In this document: positions 1,033 through 20,650 of the stretch, one piece after another
Layout: the number at the start of each line of letters is the position of its first letter
Numbering within the stretch: the first letter of the stretch is position 1
Origin: a virus
IMG/VR virus record: IMGVR_UViG_3300043783_000028
Coordinates: 1 to 21,242 of that record
Length of the DNA: 21,242 nt
Reading direction: 5' to 3' (one strand)
Notes under the pieces: generated by a model
The model's input: only the letters and a program-made list of their open reading frames with translations
Databases searched by the model: none
What the model was told of the DNA's origin: nothing
Program-made: the position numbers and the translations under genes

Positions 1033-1409
1033 TGGCCAACTGCTGCGTCGGCGTCTATCCATTCTGCATCAATCAGTACGCCACGTATCTGAAAGTTTTT
1101 ACTTGGTTGGCTCCCCCGCCGACACCGACCGCAGTAGGCGCAACGCCGCTACCGGTGAATCTCACAGGTTACACCGCGAATCTTCAGATTCGCCAGTTTC
1201 CCTTGTCGCCGACGATTCTCATCGACCTGACTCCTTACCTTGTTCTCGGTGGTGTGGCAGGCACGATAACGCTCACCATCCCTGCGAGCATTACTGCGGG
1301 GTTCACGTGGTGGCAAGCATTCTATGATTTGATCCTCACTGACCCCTCCGGCAACGTGACTCGACTCTTGGAGGGGACAGTCACCGTATCTCCTGGCGTG
1401 ACGCCATGA
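1032..1409 (+). CDS. Small phage virion-type protein, function unknown
   Basis: 125 residues, starting in a TAATG overlap with the methyltransferase stop and ending in an ATGA overlap with the large fibre gene. The middle carries a VNLTGYTANLQIRQF segment followed by alternating beta-type sequence and a C-terminal DPSGNVTRLLEGTVTVSPGV segment. This layout, 'L(T)GYTA..QIR' then a strand-rich half ending in an 'EG.V.V.PGVT' strand, resembles small beta-sandwich proteins encoded next to phage tail fibres and baseplates. The N-terminus has three Cys (C4, C5, C12) and no signal peptide or membrane segment. Tight coupling to the fibre gene suggests a fibre attachment or tail accessory role; this is inference, and I do not recognise a named family with confidence. 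Confidence 0.6.
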   Translation: MANCCVGVYPFCINQYATYLKVFTWLAPPPTPTAVGATPLPVNLTGYTANLQIRQFPLSPTILIDLTPYLVLGGVAGTITLTIPASITAGFTWWQAFYDLILTDPSGNVTRLLEGTVTVSPGVTP

Positions 1410-4400
1410 GCACACCGGGCGGACAGGTTTTCGTCTCCGGTACTCCGGGAACCATCGTCGTCGAGGAAACCGATACCAACACCGTCGAGATCATCACACC
1501 TGGGCCGCAGGGCATCCAGGGAGCGCCTGGGGCAGCAGGTGCGCCAGGAGCTCCGGGAGCACCCGGAGTTAACGGCGGCATTGATCTTGCGATCACCGGC
1601 AACACCTCTGGAACCACGGCCCTCATTTCCTCTGGCACCGCGATTCTCGCGGGTGGCCCGAACATCACTCTCTCTCAAGTCGGCCAGTCGATCACAATCA
1701 GCGGGGGCGCCGGTGGCGCGGGTGGCGGCATCGCGCTCTCCGCTGCGGGACAGTCAGTCAGTTCCGGAACCGTCACACTGTCGAACTCCAATAACGTCAG
1801 TTTCGGGATGGCGGCATCTGTCGTCACGGCGAGTGCATCCTTCGCGCAGTCGACGCAGACGCAGCCTGCTGGTGGCATCGCGGGTACGGCAACTTCTGTG
1901 ACCGGAAACGCGTCGCTCACGTTGAACTCCAATGGTCTTGCATTCAATGGCTCAGGTCTCGCTGGAACCTCGACTGGGGCTGTGAATATTTCCGTCACCC
2001 TCAATAGCAGCGGCATCTCGCTGAGTGCTCCGGCGACTGTTGCGCAGACCGGTATCAGCAGCATCATCGTATCGAATACGACCTACACGTCGGGCGCAGT
2101 CTCCTTCAGCAACGCGAATGGCATCACCTTCGGCTCAAGCGCGGGCCAAGCGATCACCGCCTCGTACAACTCCACGCAGTTCGCCGGCACGGGAACGAGC
2201 GTTACCGGCAACGCATCGATCACTTTAAATTCAAATGGTCTCGCGCTCAATGCGGCGAATCTTGCTGGCACTGGATTCGCGACGACCACCAGCGCGGGAT
2301 CGGTCATCGCCGGTACGCATAACACCACGGGATTAACTCTTGGCGTACCGCCATTTCTGACGACGCAGAGTGTGCAGACCCAAGCGAGCGGCGCCATTGC
2401 AGGGACTGGCACGTCGATCACCGGAAATGCGTCCATCACACTCAATAGCGTCGGTCTCGCGTTCAACGGGTCAGGTCTGGCTGGTACATCGACCGGCGCC
2501 GTGAATATCTCGGTGACACTCAACAGCAGCGGCATTTCCTTAAGCGCCCCCGCAGTGGGGGGTGCGCAGACCGGCATTTCAGGCATCCAAGTTTCGAACA
2601 CCACTTACACCAGCGGCACCGTCACCTTCCAAAATGCTAACGGCATTTCATTCGGCTCCAGCGGTGCGAACGGTGTCTCCGCCTCGTACACGGTGCCCAC
2701 GCAGACCAATCAGACCCTCTCGTGGGCAGCCACGTCCAACACTGCTGGCAATACGTCCGGCATGTCCGTGGATGCTCGAAGCCTCACGCTCGCAGGTTAC
2801 GGGATCGCAAGCGTCGGATACTCGACATCCGCCGGTGGCTCATCGATTGTGGTGTCCGCCACGCAATCGAATCAAGCCGTCAGCGCGCAGGGCGGCTCAT
2901 CGGCGTTCCAGACGCTGGTGTTCACGAACTCTAACAACGTATCCTTCAGCAATACGGGCGGCAGCGTGTGGGGCTCGTATGCGCTGAATGTATCTGCGAC
3001 CGGCGGTACCTCGAATGCCCTGTCGGGTCTGACATTCCAGAACAGCAACGGGGTCAGTTTTGGACTCTCCACCGGTGCTGGTGTGGGCTCACTGACGGCC
3101 TCCGTCGCCGCGCAATCGAATCAGCAGATGACGCTCTATGCGACATCCAATACCACGCAATCATCGACGGGAACGACCAACGCGAGCTCGGTGATATTCG
3201 CCGGCGCAGGAAACATCTCGGTCGGTATCACCAATGGCTCTATCGTGATTTCTGGCGCCGCGGCGGCCGCGCAGACGGGGATCAGCGGTATTCAGGTCAG
3301 CAATACCACGTATACCTCTGGGACCGTGACATTCCAGAACGCCAACGGAATATCGTTTGGCTCCAGCGGCGCCAATGGCATATCCGCCTCCTATACCGTT
3401 CCCGTACAGAGCAATCAGATGCTCTCCTTCGCAGCAACTTCGAACACCGCTGGCAACACCTCTGGCATGACGGTCGATGCGCGTTCGCTAACGCTCGCAG
3501 GATACGGCAACGCATCTGTGGGATTCTCAACCAGCGCAGGCGGCTCTTCAATCGTGGTATCGGTCACGACCGCCGCGCAGACCAATCAGACACTGGGACT
3601 CTATGCCTCATCGCAGACCACCGCGCAGTCATCCTCCTCGACCATCGATGCGCGCTCACTGACGATCGTGGGCCAAGGGAATATCTCTGTCGGTCTCTCG
3701 GCTGGCAGTTTTATCATCTCGCAGACTGGAGGCGGCGGAGGATGGGAGCTATCCGCTGGCGCAAGTTCACAATCGACCGGCACGATTGTATTCTCAAATT
3801 CCAATAATGTGAGTTTCGGCATGTCCACTGCGGCAGCTGCGGCGGCGACCGTGACGGCAACGGCGAGCTATCCGACCACACAGGCACTGTATTTTCTTGA
3901 TAATACGATTGGACAGTCCTCCACCAGCACTGCCGCAGATCAGTCGCTCTCCTATAGCCTTGGCGGCGCGCTCTCGGGCGGTTGGACCAACGGCTCGATT
4001 TTGCTATCCGCCCCTCAGACCTCAAGCCTGTCGGCGACCGGGCATATCTCCCTTAGCACCAACGGGTCAACTATCAGCATTGGGGATTTTGCAGCCGGTA
4101 GCGGCTTTACCAGCGGCTCAACGACTGGGAACTGGGCTGCGACCTTAAATAGCACTGGATTGAGCGAGGTAATACCTTTCCGCACGCGCGTCGTGTGGCC
4201 GCATTGTCAATTGACGGCCATTTCAGCGCCTGGAAATGCATCGGCATCCTTTCAATATGTTGCGGTGTATGCGCCTGCGACGGGAACACGCATCGATGCG
4301 CTGGCCTCGTGGTCCGCGATGGGTTCATCGGCGACAACCAACACCGCAGCGATCGCCATGTCGGCGTATGCCGTGATTTACACGCGCAATGTCTCAACGC

Positions 4401-4819
4401 TCTCGTCACTATCTTCTGGATCGACGCAGACCACCTACAGCTATGCGTCTAATACTGCAGGACATACCGAGTTTACGGCGGCCGCCATGCGTCCGATATC
4501 TGTCCCTGTGAATTTCAACATGCAAGCGGGCGAATATATCGTCGGTTTCAATTTAATCACCGCAACGAGCAGCATCGGAGCAAGCACCACGAGTTTCGGT
4601 CTCACGCTCTCCATGATGGGCGGAAATCAGAACCAGACGGCAGCAAATTATGCCGAAATCGGCTCACAAACAGCGTCGAGTTCTAACCTCTTCGCAGGCA
4701 TGGGCGTGTATGCCTCGGCCACTACCGGCATGCCAGCGGCCGCATCGCTATCCGCAATCGCCCAGACCGGTTCGTCGCTCTCTCAGGCCAATATTGCCCT
4801 GGTATTCAGAAACGCGTAG
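1406..4819 (+). CDS. Large repetitive tail fibre / adhesin with collagen-like segment
   Basis: 1137 residues, very rich in Ser, Thr, Gly, Asn and Ala and almost free of Lys. The N-terminal ~30 residues (possible virion anchor) are followed by a collagen-like Gly-X-Y run at about 33-58. Residues ~60-920 are degenerate beta-rich modules: an 'SNSN.VSFG' type also common in environmental phage fibres, a 'TGNASITLNSNGL' type, and four modules beginning Q-x-N-Q at residues 433, 570, 668 and 725. From about residue 925 the sequence is non-repetitive and strand-rich, a good candidate for a globular receptor-binding tip. Some repeats match perfectly in protein yet differ at most codons (see repeat entries). 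The start overlaps the upstream stop as ATGA. No enzyme motif is visible. A host-binding fibre is inferred from composition and location. Confidence 0.75.
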   Translation: MSTPGGQVFVSGTPGTIVVEETDTNTVEIITPGPQGIQGAPGAAGAPGAPGAPGVNGGIDLAITGNTSGTTALISSGTAILAGGPNITLSQVGQSITISGGAGGAGGGIALSAAGQSVSSGTVTLSNSNNVSFGMAASVVTASASFAQSTQTQPAGGIAGTATSVTGNASLTLNSNGLAFNGSGLAGTSTGAVNISVTLNSSGISLSAPATVAQTGISSIIVSNTTYTSGAVSFSNANGITFGSSAGQAITASYNSTQFAGTGTSVTGNASITLNSNGLALNAANLAGTGFATTTSAGSVIAGTHNTTGLTLGVPPFLTTQSVQTQASGAIAGTGTSITGNASITLNSVGLAFNGSGLAGTSTGAVNISVTLNSSGISLSAPAVGGAQTGISGIQVSNTTYTSGTVTFQNANGISFGSSGANGVSASYTVPTQTNQTLSWAATSNTAGNTSGMSVDARSLTLAGYGIASVGYSTSAGGSSIVVSATQSNQAVSAQGGSSAFQTLVFTNSNNVSFSNTGGSVWGSYALNVSATGGTSNALSGLTFQNSNGVSFGLSTGAGVGSLTASVAAQSNQQMTLYATSNTTQSSTGTTNASSVIFAGAGNISVGITNGSIVISGAAAAAQTGISGIQVSNTTYTSGTVTFQNANGISFGSSGANGISASYTVPVQSNQMLSFAATSNTAGNTSGMTVDARSLTLAGYGNASVGFSTSAGGSSIVVSVTTAAQTNQTLGLYASSQTTAQSSSSTIDARSLTIVGQGNISVGLSAGSFIISQTGGGGGWELSAGASSQSTGTIVFSNSNNVSFGMSTAAAAAATVTATASYPTTQALYFLDNTIGQSSTSTAADQSLSYSLGGALSGGWTNGSILLSAPQTSSLSATGHISLSTNGSTISIGDFAAGSGFTSGSTTGNWAATLNSTGLSEVIPFRTRVVWPHCQLTAISAPGNASASFQYVAVYAPATGTRIDALASWSAMGSSATTNTAAIAMSAYAVIYTRNVSTLSSLSSGSTQTTYSYASNTAGHTEFTAAAMRPISVPVNFNMQAGEYIVGFNLITATSSIGASTTSFGLTLSMMGGNQNQTAANYAEIGSQTASSSNLFAGMGVYASATTGMPAAASLSAIAQTGSSLSQANIALVFRNA
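1937..2035 (+). repeat. Fibre repeat A, copy 1 (33 codons)
   Basis: Encodes residues 178-210 of the large fibre (begins LAFNGSGLAGT, ends SLSAPA). All 33 residues are identical to copy 2 at 2456-2554, yet 22 of the 33 codons differ, all synonymously, including a CTG/TTA leucine switch. Confidence 0.9.
2456..2554 (+). repeat. Fibre repeat A, copy 2 (33 codons)
   Basis: Encodes residues 351-383. Protein-identical to copy 1 at 1937-2035 but synonymous at 22 of 33 codons. It is followed within 12 bases by repeat R copy 1, so A and R form a composite unit. After A copy 1 a more divergent R-like segment (from about 2042) occupies the matching place. Confidence 0.9.
2567..2674 (+). repeat. Fibre repeat R, copy 1 (36 codons)
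   Basis: Encodes residues 388-423 of the large fibre (begins QTGISGIQVSNTTYTSG). All 36 residues are identical to copy 2 at 3272-3379, but 27 of 36 codons differ synonymously. Similarity continues downstream into the first and third Q-x-N-Q modules with a few amino-acid changes. Confidence 0.9.
3272..3379 (+). repeat. Fibre repeat R, copy 2 (36 codons)
   Basis: Encodes residues 623-658 and is protein-identical to copy 1 at 2567-2674 despite synonymous differences at 27 of 36 codons. Three serines are encoded from the other serine codon family (TCN versus AGY), which needs more than one base change each. Confidence 0.9.
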
Positions 4820-5556: not shown

Positions 5557-6405
5557 ATGGCATACGCATCAATAGCCGGTCGCGCGAGAACCTCAAGTAG
5601 GAATCCGCAAGCGCACGCGATTTGTCACCGATGCGGTGGCAGATTCAATCGCGTGGATCTACAGTTCCAATTTCAATGGCGCGGTGCGTCGCTGGTGAAT
5701 ACCTACATTCTCGTATGCAAACGTTGTCTTGATGTGCCGACCGAGCAACTTCGCGCGATCCGCCTACCGGCTGATCCGGTGCCAGTGTTCTATCCGAGCG
5801 TCGAGCCGTTCTGCCTAGACGAAACCAATTTCCTCGCCGTCACGGCACCACCTCTGATTGATCCGGTGACCGGCATTCAGATTCCGACGAATAACTTGCG
5901 CACGACGACGAATAATTTAAATCGCACCGTGGACCCATATGGTGCGCCTATCGGCCTCACTCAAAACGCCGTGATGCCCTACAACGGCGCGCTGCAGAAA
6001 GCCTTCGGCGTGAAACTGCAATTGCTCTCAGTCGTCGGTAACGGCACGACGATTGTCACGGTGACCTGTTCGGCGCCGCACGGGCTTGCCACCAATGGGC
6101 AGATCGCGGCGGCGGGACTTTCGTACCTCGATGCCAACGGTTTCTTCAGCGTAACGGTCCTCTCAGCCACGGCATTCACCTATATGACCTACGGCGCGAT
6201 CCCGACCGGCTCGCTTCTAGAATCCGGCAGCCTTATCATCACCGCGCTCGTTGGCCTGCCGTGCGACTACGTGCAGATTCCGCTCATCAACGGCGGACCA
6301 CTGTCGATTACGGTCCAGAGTTATCTGCTGGAACTGCAAAACGGTGTGGACCTGTTCTTACTGGAGGATGGCACCGACTTCATTGAACTGGAGGCTGGCC
6401 CGTGA
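5557..6405 (+). CDS. Zinc-ribbon-containing phage structural protein, unknown function
   Basis: 282 residues. The N-terminus has two CxxC pairs (C23/C26 and C54/C57) separated by 27 residues, a typical zinc-ribbon spacing, preceded by a basic Ser/Arg stretch. About residues 160-225 form a beta domain of the 'T.VTVTCSAPHGL.TNGQIAAAGLSYLDANGFFSVTVLSATAFTY' kind, found in many phage tail and other large beta-repeat proteins. The C-terminus has a short degenerate acidic repeat (LLELQNGVDLFLLEDGTDF). The mix of a metal ribbon with a tail-type beta domain suggests a virion component near the adaptor or fibre base. No strong ribosome-binding site precedes the ATG; the gene begins 5 bases after the previous stop and ends in a GTGA overlap with the next. 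No named family is recognised. Confidence 0.6.
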   Translation: MAYASIAGRARTSSRNPQAHAICHRCGGRFNRVDLQFQFQWRGASLVNTYILVCKRCLDVPTEQLRAIRLPADPVPVFYPSVEPFCLDETNFLAVTAPPLIDPVTGIQIPTNNLRTTTNNLNRTVDPYGAPIGLTQNAVMPYNGALQKAFGVKLQLLSVVGNGTTIVTVTCSAPHGLATNGQIAAAGLSYLDANGFFSVTVLSATAFTYMTYGAIPTGSLLESGSLIITALVGLPCDYVQIPLINGGPLSITVQSYLLELQNGVDLFLLEDGTDFIELEAGP

Positions 6406-8012
6406 GCAATACGACTATTCCGATGCTGCCAGCAGTGATCGGGCTGACCGGTACCGAACAGATTGAAGTGGTGCAGAATGGGGCGTCTGCGCGCGCTTCA
6501 TTGACGCAAGTGGCGACATTAGTCGAAACCGGCGCTCAAGGACCCCCAGGTCCTGCGGGCCCTGCTGGGCCTGCGGGCAACACATCGTTGGGTCAGACAT
6601 CGCTGTCCATTAGGGCGACATTCTCTGCGGCCGTGGCGAATGCCCCGATGATCGCGAATTATCAATTTGGCAGCGGGGTGGCACCGGGTTCTGGAATTAC
6701 TCCCATCACCAATCAGACGCAGCTCGCGGCGAACTTCAATGCGTTTGAAGATTTCACGGGCATGTCGACCATCAATAGCGAGATCCAACGCTATCAGAGT
6801 TTCAATTCCAGTAATCATCAGTTTTTGACGGATCGGTTGCAACTTAACGCATTGAACCCCAACAGCGATTGGAATTGCCAGATGACGCAAATCTCTGGCA
6901 CCGTCAATTTAAACAACACATCGACCGCGATCGCGAATTTGGGACTTGCAAATACCACAGGCCTGCAAGTCGGTCAGATGGTATGCGTCGCTCGAGCTGG
7001 CACTTATATCATCAGCGCGTTTGTGGCGAATACTTCGGTCACGTTGCAGTCCGTCGGAGGCTCTCCAACCACCTCGGTAAGCACGGGCGTGGCGTACTTC
7101 ATGCCGATCGTCAGTGCGGTGCTAAGCGCCGCTTATGTGCCAGGGAACACTTTTTTTACAGTCACGGCGCTTCCGGCCATCACTAACATCAATGGGATGC
7201 AGCTCGCGCACTACAATACCGGGTCCAACACCGTCTTGGAGCGGAACAACGATTATCGGGTAACGACCGCCTCCGGGACGACGGTAAATTTCAACACACA
7301 GTGGACCGTTGGCGCGCTTGGGATTGGCGAACTGATCTGGTTTCTGCCGGTCGTCACATCAGGGCAGATTTGGAGCCAGCTGCAAATCGACATCACGAAT
7401 CCGCAAACATTTTTTGCCTTGGAATGTCACGTCGATAACTATGGTGGCTCGCGCAGCTCCAACACGCTGAACGCCAATTCATTGGCGCAGGTCAACGCGC
7501 TCCCCGCCAACACGCCGTGGGGGGCATGGGCAACCTTCTGGTGTTACTCGGCTGATGATGGCAACTCAACGGGGGAGACCGGCAGCGCATCGGAGATCGA
7601 TGTATTGGAGCCGCAAATTAGTGTGAGCCAAGGGTGTCAGCAGGCGAACACGGGCAACAATGCAGGAACTGTTGTCATGATCAAGTCAGACAGTGGTTGG
7701 ATAAATTTTTACGAAAACTTCATTCACGGTAAAACCGACGGGAGCGATTTCACGGGCGATCATCTGTGGCAACTGATTTTCTGCAACGGCTACACGTATA
7801 AATTCTTCGATGGGATTCTCATCCAAGTGCAGACGTTCATCTGGAATAGCCAACATCCGCTGCAATTTGGCTTCGATCTCGCAGCAGGCGCGGTGCCGGC
7901 AGCCTACGGCGCTAATGTCTTGTTCCCCAATGCGACAACTAATTTCGCTGGCATTATCTCAGGCATTAAAGGGATCAAGGTCTGGTATCAGGCAGCGGTG
8001 GGCGGAGGGTAA
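6402..8012 (+). CDS. Tail protein with collagen-like segment and GH16-like (concanavalin A-type) domain
   Basis: 536 residues, GTG start in a GTGA overlap. The first ~40 residues ('LPAVIGLTGTEQIEVVQNGASARASL') match a common N-terminal virion-attachment segment of phage fibres. A collagen-like Gly-Pro-Pro/Ala run is at 44-59. The C-terminal part resembles glycoside hydrolase family 16: WGAWATFWCYS, then EIDVLE at 398-403, matching the ExDxxE catalytic bulge (E398 nucleophile, D400, E403 acid/base by analogy), then HLWQLIFCNGYTYKFF.DG, PLQFGFDLAAG and a last strand GIKGIKVWYQ. GH16 enzymes cleave beta-1,3/1,4 glucans and galactans, so this could be a tail depolymerase that digests host capsule or biofilm. 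Catalysis and substrate are inferred; a non-catalytic lectin of the same fold is possible. Confidence 0.65.
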   Translation: MSNTTIPMLPAVIGLTGTEQIEVVQNGASARASLTQVATLVETGAQGPPGPAGPAGPAGNTSLGQTSLSIRATFSAAVANAPMIANYQFGSGVAPGSGITPITNQTQLAANFNAFEDFTGMSTINSEIQRYQSFNSSNHQFLTDRLQLNALNPNSDWNCQMTQISGTVNLNNTSTAIANLGLANTTGLQVGQMVCVARAGTYIISAFVANTSVTLQSVGGSPTTSVSTGVAYFMPIVSAVLSAAYVPGNTFFTVTALPAITNINGMQLAHYNTGSNTVLERNNDYRVTTASGTTVNFNTQWTVGALGIGELIWFLPVVTSGQIWSQLQIDITNPQTFFALECHVDNYGGSRSSNTLNANSLAQVNALPANTPWGAWATFWCYSADDGNSTGETGSASEIDVLEPQISVSQGCQQANTGNNAGTVVMIKSDSGWINFYENFIHGKTDGSDFTGDHLWQLIFCNGYTYKFFDGILIQVQTFIWNSQHPLQFGFDLAAGAVPAAYGANVLFPNATTNFAGIISGIKGIKVWYQAAVGGG

Positions 8013-13856: not shown

Positions 13857-16800
13857 GTGCCCGCCAGTGTACTCGCGGCCTACCAGAGCGTTAATCAAAA
13901 AGCTGATACGACCGCCAACACGCCTTTTCAAACTTACGGTGGTGAGTTCGTCGCGCCGATAAATCAGCAACAATCCGCTGGCGTAGCTGGAACGAATGCT
14001 GCGGCTAATGAAGCCCAACCATATTTCGGCGCGGCCACTGGCGATATTCAAAGTACGCAAGCGAATACGCAACCGATCAACGATGCAGCCACTGGACTAG
14101 CAGCGGCGAGTGCGGGACCAGTTAACGCGCAACAAATAGGATCACAACAGATTGATCAATTCATGAATCCGTATCTGAATACGGTTCTCGGATCAACTGC
14201 AGGACTTCTCAATCAGAATAATCAACAGCAGCAGGCGGGGCAACTTGGCACGGCGATAGAATCAGGTGCATTCGGGGGAGACCGCACGGGCCTCGCTGCT
14301 GCGAACTTAGAGCAGCAACAGAATCTTGCAAACGCGAATATTTATTCAGGTATTGCGAGCGGCGCGTTCAACACTGCACTCGGTGCCGCGCAACAACAAC
14401 AGGGTGTCAACCTAGGAGCGGGTCAAGCAAATCGTGCCGCATTAGCATCCGCTGGTCAGGAGCTCGCTGGCATTGGTCAGACAGCATACGGCGAAGGTGC
14501 CAACACTGCGACTACGCTCGCAGGTCTAGGGGCTGGTGCGCAGACTGCTGGCCTACAGGGCGCGCAGGCACAGATTGGCGCGGGCACATTAGAGCAGCAG
14601 ACGGCCCAGGCGCAAGATACTGCGCAGTACAATCAATTTCTTCAACAGCAGAGTTATCCATTTCAAGTGGATTCTTGGCTGGCCTCGATTGCCGAAGGGA
14701 CCGGGGCTCTCTCGGGATCTACCACTACGACGTCCCAGCCCGGAGGCTTCTTCTCCGACGTTCGTTTGAAACACGATATCAAACAGATTGGCAAAACTTT
14801 CGATGGTCAAGAAATTTATTCGTACAAAATGCATGGCGACGATCGCACGCATATTGGATTGATTGCACAGAAAGTTGAGAAAAAACATCCAGAGGCTGTC
14901 GGTCTCGCTGGCGGCTACAAGATTGTCGACTACGGTGCGGCAACTGAGAAAGCGGCGAACCGTGGACACTTTTATAGCGGCGGTGTTGTTCCCATCCGTC
15001 GCAAAGCGTACGCCGATGGCGGCATGCCATACGATTATTTATCCGCGCAGCAACAGATGTATGCGCCGATGGAGAGTCGCCAGAATCGCAACATCCCGAA
15101 TCAAGCGCCTGCTGCGCATCAACTAGCGGTCGCGTCTGGTTCTCCAACTCCGGTGCCTACGGGTGCTTCGAATTTGAATCAGTCGTTAGGATTAATTAAT
15201 AACGGCCGTACTCTGTACAACAGATTCAGTTCTCCCTCATCGACACCCAGCACGCCTACGCCTGCCGGCGCCTGGAGTGATCCTGCGACCTCTGGCGGCT
15301 TCGATGGGTCGGCTGGCTACAGCGGCGGACTTGCGCCTGCTGCTGCGCCTGCGGCTGAAACCGCTGCCCCTGCTGCTGCAGAAGCTGCCGCACCGGCTGC
15401 TGCTGAGGCCGCTGTGCCGGTCGCGGCGGATGCGGCGGTAGGTGCCGGGGCTGAGACTGCTGCGGCACTGGCAGCCGAATACGCGGCGGCAGATGTGGGT
15501 GCAGCGGCGCTCATTGCCGCCAAGCGAGGCGGCCGCATGAAGCGTCCGGGGCTTGACGCGGGGGGTATGCCCTACCAGGGCGATGGCGCGGGTACCCCGT
15601 ATCAATCCGCCGATGGCACCATGGATATCCCGAACGATCCGAACACCGCCAAACTGCAGACCGCTGGGCCCTTAAAGAAGCAGCCGACGGGACTGCAGAC
15701 CGCCCTTAGCATGGGCGATCCGAATAGCTTAGGGACCACAGTGGGGAGCATGTTCAGCAACACCGCGCTCTCACGTGGCGGCCTAGCGAGACGACGGCGC
15801 GGCTATGACGATGGCGGCGATGTGTCCGACTCAGACATGCCGGAATTGACCGTTGAGGGTCAACGACCAGATCCAGTCACCTATGCGGGCGGCGTCAATC
15901 CTGAGCCAATCAAGGTCGACTCGGGCGCCGAACCCCCCATGCCGGGATTGAAAGGCGGCTTGCCACCCGACTCGCCACCCGCGTCCACGGATCACTGGTG
16001 GAAGCACGCTGAGAACGTCGTACCGATCCTCCAGGGACTCGCTGCCATGGGGACGGCACCTACTAAGCACTTAGGCGTGGCGTTGGCTGCAGGGCTCGGT
16101 GCGGGCGCGCAGTCGTGGCTCCCGGCGCAACAGCAGGAGGCGGATATACAACGCACGCAGTTGCAGAATCAAATGGCACGGATGCAGGTGGGTGCAATGC
16201 GCGGGGCCATGACGCCACCGTCTGGCGGGGGGTCCCAAGCAACGATACCTGGCGCACCGCCGAGCGATGCAAGCGCGCTGCCAGGGTATTTCGCAAAGAA
16301 ATACAACCCGACCATGACCCCAGCGGAATTATCTCGGTATAACAGTGCACAGGTAGCAGGCGGGTATACGAAAAATCCTGGGCTTGCACAAAGCGTCATG
16401 ACTGATTATCAGCAGCGCGTCGCGCGGCAGCAGCAGGATGCCATACAGCAGCACGATCAGGCATACAGCGTCGCTACTGCTCAGGACGGTAATTTTGCGG
16501 CCCTCGCGAAATCAGACCCAGTGGCCGCAGCTGCGATATCGAAATCATTAGGATTCGATGCCGCGAGCAACCAGATACCGCCGAGTGCGGATGAGGCTGC
16601 TAAGCAGTATGCAACGGCTAAGGTCACGGCGATTCATCCTTGGACAGGTTCTGATTATAAGGACGAGGGAGGCTCGTTCCGCGACACGCGCACCGGGAAG
16701 CCCGCGATCGGGGCGACAGCGCAAACGCTGACCGCTGAGCAGACGCAGCAGAATTGGCAAAGAGCGGTCGCTGAGGCAAACGAACCCGTTACGACGGGTG

Positions 16801-17696
16801 CTGGGCTCCCGACACTCCGATACAAGTCATTGGGATACCCATCAGACACGGCCTATGCCGCGCATAAGACTGGCACTCCGGCCCCTCAGAGCGCAGCCAC
16901 TCCGCCACAGGCAGCGCCGCCAGTAAAGCCGCCCGCAACATCGACGCCAACGAAGACGGTGGCGCATGCTCCAGCCACCCCTAGCAGTCCGCAGACGCAG
17001 ATGCTGAATGGCGTTGATCTGAATGCGATTCCAAAATTGCCACCGCTCCCAGCCGTCGTCGATCAGCCAACAAAGGCTCGCGCAGATGAGCGCGCGACGT
17101 CTGATGTGAAAGTGCAAAACGATACGATGGGTTCTTTGTCGCAGCAGGCAGCGGCCGCCGCAAGAAACACGGCTGTCTATTCTCAACTGGAAAAAACGTT
17201 AGCGAACGCAAGTCCGCGCGAGTTCGGTCCAAGCTCATCTACATATAAAGCGGTAATGGGACTCAAAACATACCTTAGCGGGCTACCTCCAGATGGGCTC
17301 GTGAATCAAGCGGAAGCCGATAAATATCTCGCACAGCTGGGCGTTGGTGGCTCAAAGCAATTGCTCGGAGCTGACCAGCAGTTGAGACAGCAAGAAATGC
17401 TACTGCTGATGTCGCGCGCAAATCCCAACATAGATCAACCGTTGCAGGTAATCAAAAACTTGGCAGCCTTTGGCCGCGTTGGGAATGAGTATGATTTTAA
17501 AGCGGCGAACACCGGCGTGGCAGCGATTCGCAACGGCGCCGATCCGTTCGCTGTGCCTGGCGCCATTGAGAGCCAAATGCCGCGGGCGGCGTATGTCACC
17601 GGGAAACTCAACACCCCGCAGTCGCACCTTGATTACCTGAAGGCGCATCCCGAAACGGCATCGCAGTTCAAAGCCAAACATGGATATCTACCGTAA
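13857..17696 (+). CDS. Large Ala/Gln-rich phage protein with internal S74 chaperone domain; candidate ejection protein
   Basis: 1279 residues from GTG 13857; an ATC at 13818 may be the real start. Residues 1-290 are helical and Gln/Ala-rich, with LGTAIESGAFGGDRTGLAAANL near 127-148. An S74 intramolecular chaperone-like domain follows (about 299-365): FFSDVRLKHDIKQIG with S300, D301, R303 and K305 at the Ser/Lys self-cleavage positions, then HIGLIAQKVEKKHPEAVGL. Three basic 'R..Y..DGG' patches are at 381-392, 557-573 and 645-654, an Ala-rich tract is at 493-555, and the C-terminal ~250 residues are helical. S74 domains normally end fibres; here 900 residues follow. Its size, composition and position next to the 600-residue candidate ejection protein suggest a DNA-ejection or virion-internal role; this is inference. 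The stop overlaps the next start as TAATG. Confidence 0.65.
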   Translation: MPASVLAAYQSVNQKADTTANTPFQTYGGEFVAPINQQQSAGVAGTNAAANEAQPYFGAATGDIQSTQANTQPINDAATGLAAASAGPVNAQQIGSQQIDQFMNPYLNTVLGSTAGLLNQNNQQQQAGQLGTAIESGAFGGDRTGLAAANLEQQQNLANANIYSGIASGAFNTALGAAQQQQGVNLGAGQANRAALASAGQELAGIGQTAYGEGANTATTLAGLGAGAQTAGLQGAQAQIGAGTLEQQTAQAQDTAQYNQFLQQQSYPFQVDSWLASIAEGTGALSGSTTTTSQPGGFFSDVRLKHDIKQIGKTFDGQEIYSYKMHGDDRTHIGLIAQKVEKKHPEAVGLAGGYKIVDYGAATEKAANRGHFYSGGVVPIRRKAYADGGMPYDYLSAQQQMYAPMESRQNRNIPNQAPAAHQLAVASGSPTPVPTGASNLNQSLGLINNGRTLYNRFSSPSSTPSTPTPAGAWSDPATSGGFDGSAGYSGGLAPAAAPAAETAAPAAAEAAAPAAAEAAVPVAADAAVGAGAETAAALAAEYAAADVGAAALIAAKRGGRMKRPGLDAGGMPYQGDGAGTPYQSADGTMDIPNDPNTAKLQTAGPLKKQPTGLQTALSMGDPNSLGTTVGSMFSNTALSRGGLARRRRGYDDGGDVSDSDMPELTVEGQRPDPVTYAGGVNPEPIKVDSGAEPPMPGLKGGLPPDSPPASTDHWWKHAENVVPILQGLAAMGTAPTKHLGVALAAGLGAGAQSWLPAQQQEADIQRTQLQNQMARMQVGAMRGAMTPPSGGGSQATIPGAPPSDASALPGYFAKKYNPTMTPAELSRYNSAQVAGGYTKNPGLAQSVMTDYQQRVARQQQDAIQQHDQAYSVATAQDGNFAALAKSDPVAAAAISKSLGFDAASNQIPPSADEAAKQYATAKVTAIHPWTGSDYKDEGGSFRDTRTGKPAIGATAQTLTAEQTQQNWQRAVAEANEPVTTGAGLPTLRYKSLGYPSDTAYAAHKTGTPAPQSAATPPQAAPPVKPPATSTPTKTVAHAPATPSSPQTQMLNGVDLNAIPKLPPLPAVVDQPTKARADERATSDVKVQNDTMGSLSQQAAAAARNTAVYSQLEKTLANASPREFGPSSSTYKAVMGLKTYLSGLPPDGLVNQAEADKYLAQLGVGGSKQLLGADQQLRQQEMLLLMSRANPNIDQPLQVIKNLAAFGRVGNEYDFKAANTGVAAIRNGADPFAVPGAIESQMPRAAYVTGKLNTPQSHLDYLKAHPETASQFKAKHGYLP

Positions 17697-19702: not shown

Positions 19703-20650
19703 GTGAGTACGTTTTCACCCAACAAAAACATAGAGGAGCCTGCATCAGGCTCTTATACAAACGCATGGGCGGCCCCGATCAACGCTAATTTCACGTTGAT
19801 AGATTCAGCATTCGGTGGCACGACAACGATAAATGTAACCGGGATTAGTGCGGGCACTTACGCATTAGTTCCGACGCAATACATCCCATGCAACATCGAG
19901 TTCACCGGCACGCTCGGCGCGAACCTCACTTATGTCGTCCCGCCTGGCGTTGGCGGAAACTGGACGATATCCAACACCACGACGGGTGCATTTAATATCA
20001 ATTTCGGGGTAAGCGGCGGCGGTGCTTCGTTGGTGGTGCAAGGGGCTCGCACACTGATCAACAGTGATGGTAATACGACAGCATACGCGGATGATGCTCA
20101 GTATTTGTTGGCGACACAGTTTGCCACAACTGCAGCGAATACCGCGCAGTCGACGGCCGAAGCCTTCGCGACGGCAGCGGACGCGGTGGTCACAACGAAC
20201 ACGGAGGCCTTTGCGACGAGCGCGGCGAGCAACGCGCAGACGAATGCCGAGAATTTCACTCTCGCGCAAGGCTATGCGCCGCTCGCCTCCCCTGCGCTCA
20301 CTGGCACCCCTACGGCGCCCACTGCGGCGGTTGGCACGAGCACGACGCAGCTGGCGACGACGGCATTCTCTGCCGGCACCTCCTCTCTCGCGAGTAACGG
20401 GTGGGTCGTAAACCCTTCCGGCCTCAAAGAAATTTGGGGCACCGCGACTTTAAGCGTCTCAGGCACCGCGTATTCGTTCAGCAGCGTATCGGGAGCGACG
20501 TTTCCCACGGCATGTTTTCAGGTGCTGATCACCCCTATTGCTGGGGCTGGGGTGTATCCATCGTTCTCCGTGACCGGGATCAGCACCACAGGATTTACGT
20601 TAAATGCCAACAATGCGGGCCCGTATTTTTTCAGGGCGTTGGGGCACTAG
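19703..20650 (+). CDS. Tail fibre with collar-type repeat and gp53-like C-terminal domain
   Basis: 315 residues, GTG start set by AAGGAG. The N-terminus 'NIEEPASGSYTNAWAAPINANFTLIDSAFGG' is a typical phage fibre anchor, followed by a beta domain (about 40-120) and then a helical, Ala/Thr-rich coiled-coil-like stretch (about 130-195). At about 196-225, 'YAPLASPALTGTPTAPTAAVGTSTTQLATTAF' matches the phage tail-fibre/collar repeat. The C-terminal part begins NGWVVNPSGLKEIWGTATLS and ends 'SFSVTGISTTGFTLNANNAGPYFFRALGH', the pattern of the gp53-like fibre tip. A receptor-binding fibre at the virion tail is the likely role. This is a second fibre besides 1406-4819 and the GH16-like protein. The next gene's ATG directly follows its TAG. 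Confidence 0.75.
   Translation: MSTFSPNKNIEEPASGSYTNAWAAPINANFTLIDSAFGGTTTINVTGISAGTYALVPTQYIPCNIEFTGTLGANLTYVVPPGVGGNWTISNTTTGAFNINFGVSGGGASLVVQGARTLINSDGNTTAYADDAQYLLATQFATTAANTAQSTAEAFATAADAVVTTNTEAFATSAASNAQTNAENFTLAQGYAPLASPALTGTPTAPTAAVGTSTTQLATTAFSAGTSSLASNGWVVNPSGLKEIWGTATLSVSGTAYSFSSVSGATFPTACFQVLITPIAGAGVYPSFSVTGISTTGFTLNANNAGPYFFRALGH

Follow-up and report, generated by a model that had tools for sequence, protein, structure and literature searches.

Conserved protein repeats with saturated silent sites in a predicted phage fibre gene, probably shuffled as modules between diverged phages

How can two repeats within one gene encode the same peptide and differ at most of their codons? 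This question is raised by a predicted fibre gene at 1406..4819 on the plus strand of the window, i.e., the 21,242-nt stretch of viral DNA analysed here (IMG/VR record IMGVR_UViG_3300043783_000028). The gene was taken from the ORF list and relatives of it were found. Its 1137-aa product is predicted to be a phage fibre from its sequence features and its virion-protein neighbours, and it has no match in Pfam or PHROG. The protein is laid out as a Gly-X-Y collagen-like stretch near the N terminus, followed by beta-rich repeat modules and a conserved C-terminal region.

All repeat copies lie on the plus strand. The R block is present as copy 1 at 2564..2857 (residues 387-484), which consists of an R module and an S1 module, and as copy 2 at 3269..3562 (residues 622-719), which consists of an R module and an S2 module. 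These two 98-aa copies are 92% identical as protein and 72% identical as DNA, and a third, weaker R copy at 2042..2140 (residues 213-245) shows 82% aa identity to both. The A block occupies 1847..2035 (copy 1, residues 148-210) and 2366..2554 (copy 2, residues 321-383); its 63-aa copies are 87% identical as protein and 69% as DNA, and a partial A-type copy (80% aa) is found at 2183..2272 (residues 260-289). The stretches of 36 and 33 identical residues pointed out in the initial annotation turned out to be identical cores inside these longer 98-aa and 63-aa repeats. The R core encodes the same peptide, QTGISGIQVSNTTYTSGTVTFQNANGISFGSSGANG, at 2567-2674 and at 3272-3379: all 36 residues are the same, 27 of the 36 codons (33 nt) are different, and three serines swap between TCN and AGY codons, as had been claimed. 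The description of the A core also proved correct, with the peptide LAFNGSGLAGTSTGAVNISVTLNSSGISLSAPA encoded at both 1937-2035 and 2456-2554 (33/33 residues the same, 22/33 codons and 23 nt different). The protein identity of both the R and the A copies greatly exceeds chance.

The codon divergence was compared with a null in which codons were drawn independently from the fibre gene's own usage, and was expressed as the ratio of observed to expected synonymous difference. The R core has 27 differing codons against 22.3 expected (P of 27 or more, 0.06) and the A core has 22 against 22.4. For the full blocks, 58 of 90 codons differ in R (57.7 expected) and 38 of 55 in A (36.5 expected). The R and A copies are saturated at silent sites, with no clear excess beyond saturation. 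In a Nei-Gojobori-type count, the dS of both full blocks lay beyond saturation and gave no estimate, and dN was 0.05 for R and 0.09 for A.

To collect relatives, viral contigs were scanned four times with the fibre or its modules as the protein guide and once with a core protein, and species genomes were scanned once, which contributed three metagenome-assembled genomes; all other comparison loci are IMG/VR contigs. The collected set comprises 1,207 modules in 188 unique fibre ORFs, and nearly all of these ORFs lie on viral contigs from the environment. The recruitment of loci by conserved 8-mers favours conserved pairs, as does the minimum identity required in the segment search. The modules follow the approximate pattern SAGTxSxxxGTVxFSNxNGxxFGxxxSxxTASYT. 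The fibre family was absent from 50,697 phage records when queried with the whole fibre, the R block, and a composite module, although the BLAST low-complexity filter may mask some matches. In the search of 84,980 species genomes, the R module had no match and a second module type matched the three metagenome-assembled genomes; no isolate carrying the module family was found. Pfam has no entry for the module family, and other members gave single weak PHROG matches only. A sequence search of PDB gave chance-level matches only, the best at E 0.34. An AlphaFold2 monomer model showed paired short beta strands at low confidence (mean pLDDT 69, pTM 0.33), and a Foldseek fold search with this low-confidence model returned no match. 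The repeats could not be placed in any known fibre or adhesin domain family of Pfam, PHROG, or PDB; the module family is uncatalogued and widespread in environmental phages.

Several other features were observed in the window and in the collected loci. A glycosyltransferase-like ORF (named by sequence impression, with no Pfam match) and a methyltransferase gene (PF08241) adjoin the fibre gene at 1-1032 of the window; of 170 module-fibre loci, 106 have a homologue of the former and 92 of the latter. In 102 loci the homologue of the glycosyltransferase-like ORF shares the fibre's strand and sits downstream of the fibre, but in the window this ORF is upstream. The 1279-aa protein encoded at 13857-17696 carries a Peptidase_S74 (endosialidase chaperone) domain that is internal (residues 300-348) and not C-terminal. 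Two more fibre-like ORFs lie at 6402-8012 and 19703-20650, the former with collagen-like triplets near the N terminus. Among the relatives, the fibre of L176 (3721-7773), in a Fimbriimonadaceae metagenome-assembled genome, has repeat blocks of up to 240 aa that are 98-99% identical as protein with a synonymous ratio of ~0.3-0.5, which is intermediate between fresh duplication and saturation. The ORF at 5320-8253 of L027 contains collagen-like 12-residue repeats (TGPTGAAG...) at about residues 125-225, and their copies have 68 differing codons, slightly above the 57.9 expected.

The initial annotation regarded such repeats within one gene as unusual. This did not hold: across 128 fibre genes, most within-gene repeat pairs are at or near saturation. 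The median synonymous ratio was 0.90 for within-gene pairs (n = 809) and 0.97 for between-gene pairs (n = 14,047), and values below 0.5 were found in 7.4% and 0.2% of them, respectively. Saturation is thus a little lower within genes than between them, so in-gene duplication contributes to the repeats. Non-repeat genes with equal synonymous divergence, which the annotation had itself named as evidence against its proposal, were also found, since the flanking and core genes of the relatives reach ~0.7-1.05 of saturation. The repeats are not alone in combining a conserved protein with saturated silent sites.

Another explanation would lie in the origin of the comparison loci. An assembler working from short reads loses or merges near-identical repeats, so that only diverged ones might be visible, and the loci, with no isolate among them, are IMG/VR contigs but for the three metagenome-assembled genomes. 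Such a bias is, nevertheless, quite improbable as the explanation. Saturation is just as high in pairs that fit into a single read, at most 40 aa or 120 bp (medians 0.90 and 0.93), as in longer pairs (0.90 and 0.87), and this speaks against assembly as the main cause. Besides, assembly cannot produce saturation between genes, and some contigs do hold identical and young copies.

Six clear module indels were found between close relatives, with lengths of 135, 144, 252, 282, 399, and 708 nt. All are multiples of three, i.e., in frame, and most occur at an equivalent module register. The exact identity at their junctions is 2-18 bp, which exceeds that of random in-frame junctions in five of the six cases (P from <0.001 to 0.018) but not in the sixth (2 bp, P 0.23). 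Two of the indels separate fibres with a dS of only ~0.02 (L229/L247, where assembly collapse is possible, and L248/L252), which indicates that silent saturation is much slower than the change in module number.

As one of two alternatives, the initial annotation proposed that synonymous changes are favoured by selection against DNA identity, because recombination between identical repeats would make the fibre collapse. Module indels with short junction identities do occur, exact repeats longer than 60 nt are scarce (4 of the first 81 genes), and the R core by itself lies slightly above the codon expectation. For a direct comparison, codons were shuffled synonymously within each gene and exact 12-, 15-, and 20-mers were counted, with a z below -2 taken as depletion. 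None of the 169 genes had fewer exact repeats than its shuffles, and 55-79 had more. Within-gene pairs above saturation (z > 2) made up ~1.2%, which is under the 2.3% expected by chance, and the spacing of the copies had no effect (rho -0.05, p 0.40). The indels also bypassed the longest exact repeats available: L229 contains a 93-bp exact repeat, and its indel used a junction of 5 bp. Finally, saturation between phages is equally high, and in-gene recombination cannot be its reason there. We found no literature report on synonymous recoding of natural fibre repeats. The fibre genes do not look recoded to avoid recombination, and we consider selection against DNA identity very improbable.

Recombination could also act as a passive filter with no selection on codons, if near-identical copies were soon lost and only diverged ones persisted. 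The module number differs between relatives at dS ~0.02-0.3, far faster than silent sites saturate, and a ratio below 0.25 is seen in only 1.2% of within-gene pairs, as such a filter would have it. On the other hand, at least 10 of 128 genes do contain young copies, between-gene pairs, which are free of such a filter, are just as saturated, and the observed indels are not at the most similar copies, although six events are too few to decide. A survivor filter is the most interesting remaining possibility, but we regard it as unlikely.

Homogenisation of the repeats by recombination, which would bring in-gene copies closer than copies at the same place in related phages, was not found in most close relatives. 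In the pair L077/L101, the same-place ratio is 0.19 and the in-gene ratio is 0.97, with same-place copies closer in all 14 comparisons. Same-place copies were also closer in 20/20 comparisons for L229/L247, 9/10 for L229/L230, 14/16 for L199/L200, and 7/9 for L213/L214, and several smaller close pairs likewise favour them. When distant pairs are included, the tally is 126/213, but for pairs with a ratio above ~0.5 this comparison is uninformative or reversed, partly from module rearrangement. Fibres with an ortholog ratio of 0.4 or lower mostly have closer same-place copies, which is not the pattern of concerted evolution; this concerns the fibres of relatives and not the window's own. No close relative of the window phage (above ~75% aa identity in the 8802 core protein) was found, the nearest having 73%.

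A sliding-window comparison of L077 and L101 revealed long blocks with a ratio of 0.00 beside blocks of 0.8-0.96 with partly conserved protein, and these latter blocks fit replacement by diverged copies. Local DNA links also join otherwise unlinked fibres. Together with the sharing of the S1 module described below, these observations mark the genes as modular mosaic fibres.

Could the R and A pairs simply be very old in-gene duplications that have stayed where they arose, without any exchange between phages? In favour of this, A1/A2 and the 98-aa R blocks are mutual best full-length protein matches, and L016 and L056 have retained 942 aligned residues gap-free at a ratio of 0.72. The R module, however, is present in L004, L009, L010, L011, L018, L022, and others at 90-98% aa and ~70% nt identity. 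R1 and R2 match each other at 44/45 residues, and each also has a 44/45 match in a different phage (L022 or L004). The S1 module (2699..2857) has its nearest protein copy in another phage, at locus L068 (50/52 aa, 69% nt, 38 of 49 codons differing where 34.1 are expected), while its in-gene partner S2 matches it at only 46/52. Moreover, module turnover outpaces silent saturation, and the aligned genes are mosaic. In-gene duplication as the sole origin of both pairs is therefore doubtful, although it keeps somewhat more credit than the alternatives considered above. R1 and R2 probably met through exchange and not by a very old in-gene duplication. Meanwhile, A1 and A2 (55/63 aa) are mutually closest in the collected set, the next best match being 37/53. 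With no closer copy elsewhere in this set, an old in-gene duplication suits them better than exchange, and perhaps this is how they arose.

The other alternative of the initial annotation, that the repeat protein has been under long selection, found support. The dN/dS of same-place modules in unsaturated comparisons is mostly 0.03-0.13, and modules remain 90-98% identical as protein between phages at saturated silent sites. Across pairs, pS climbs from 0.16 to ~1.0 and dN stays steady at 0.02-0.07. Low dN/dS, in-frame indels, and ratios ranging from 0.00 to saturation make up the pattern of birth-and-death evolution under purifying selection. The core virion proteins of the relatives compared are mostly 50-73% identical, and among the 10,802 36-aa windows in the compared genes only 93 reached 34/36 identity, all of them in the 8802 protein. 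This scarcity places the R module among the most conserved stretches of these phages. The constraint may lie in the structure of the fibre shaft.

Taken together, we conclude, with a probability of roughly 0.78, that the repeats are old conserved modules which ordinary purifying selection maintains and which have been shuffled between diverged phages. The fibre would consist of short beta-rich modules (~38-55 aa) joined in a row and drawn from a large family common to many environmental phages. Purifying selection would hold the protein of each module type and leave synonymous sites to drift freely. Whole modules would be gained, lost, and swapped in frame by recombination at short identities near module boundaries, and fibre genes would trade segments with diverged relatives. 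Copies within a gene would, in this way, usually be old, or be brought together already diverged, and so resemble each other in protein sequence but not at silent sites.

Collagen-like phage fibres contain Gly-X-Y stretches and repeats and likely have a structural role. The window fibre resembles them in its Gly-X-Y stretch near the N terminus, its repeats, and its likely structural role, but its main repeats are not collagen-like. Polyubiquitin genes offer another comparison, as PMC10457151 recounts a debate on whether they follow concerted or birth-and-death evolution (Nei et al. 2000; Sharp and Li 1987, both via PMC10457151), and describes Plasmodium polyubiquitin repeats as more alike within a locus than between species, i.e., as evolving in concert. 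Like polyubiquitin, the fibre has tandem protein-identical repeats that differ at many synonymous positions; purifying selection on them is strong, and recombination shifts their copy number. Unlike in Plasmodium polyubiquitin, same-place copies in close relatives of this family are usually closer, and modules are also common to several phages. The exchange of modules among phage fibres is well established, with module swapping in T4-type fibritin and tail fibres common to distant phages described in PMC3797505 and PMC10579305, respectively. The genes studied here resemble such modular mosaic tail fibres in being built by segment exchange between phages, and differ from them in that the units are short (~38-55 aa), several per gene, 90-98% identical as protein, and saturated at silent sites.

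The results remove the attractive but unsupported idea that phages recode their fibre repeats for stability. It is replaced by a picture of conserved protein, saturated silent sites, in-gene copies that are usually not homogenised, and quick turnover of whole modules. The pairs L077/L101, L229/L247, and L248/L252 provide a natural system for following module turnover against silent divergence. A bolder view, which we put forward tentatively and think is probably wrong, is that environmental phages have in common a parts list of shaft modules more conserved as protein than most of their core virion proteins, and that fibres are continually reassembled from diverged copies, with near-identical ones weeded out by recombination. 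If this were true, a recombination filter working on a pool of modules shared across phages would determine the architecture of the fibre.
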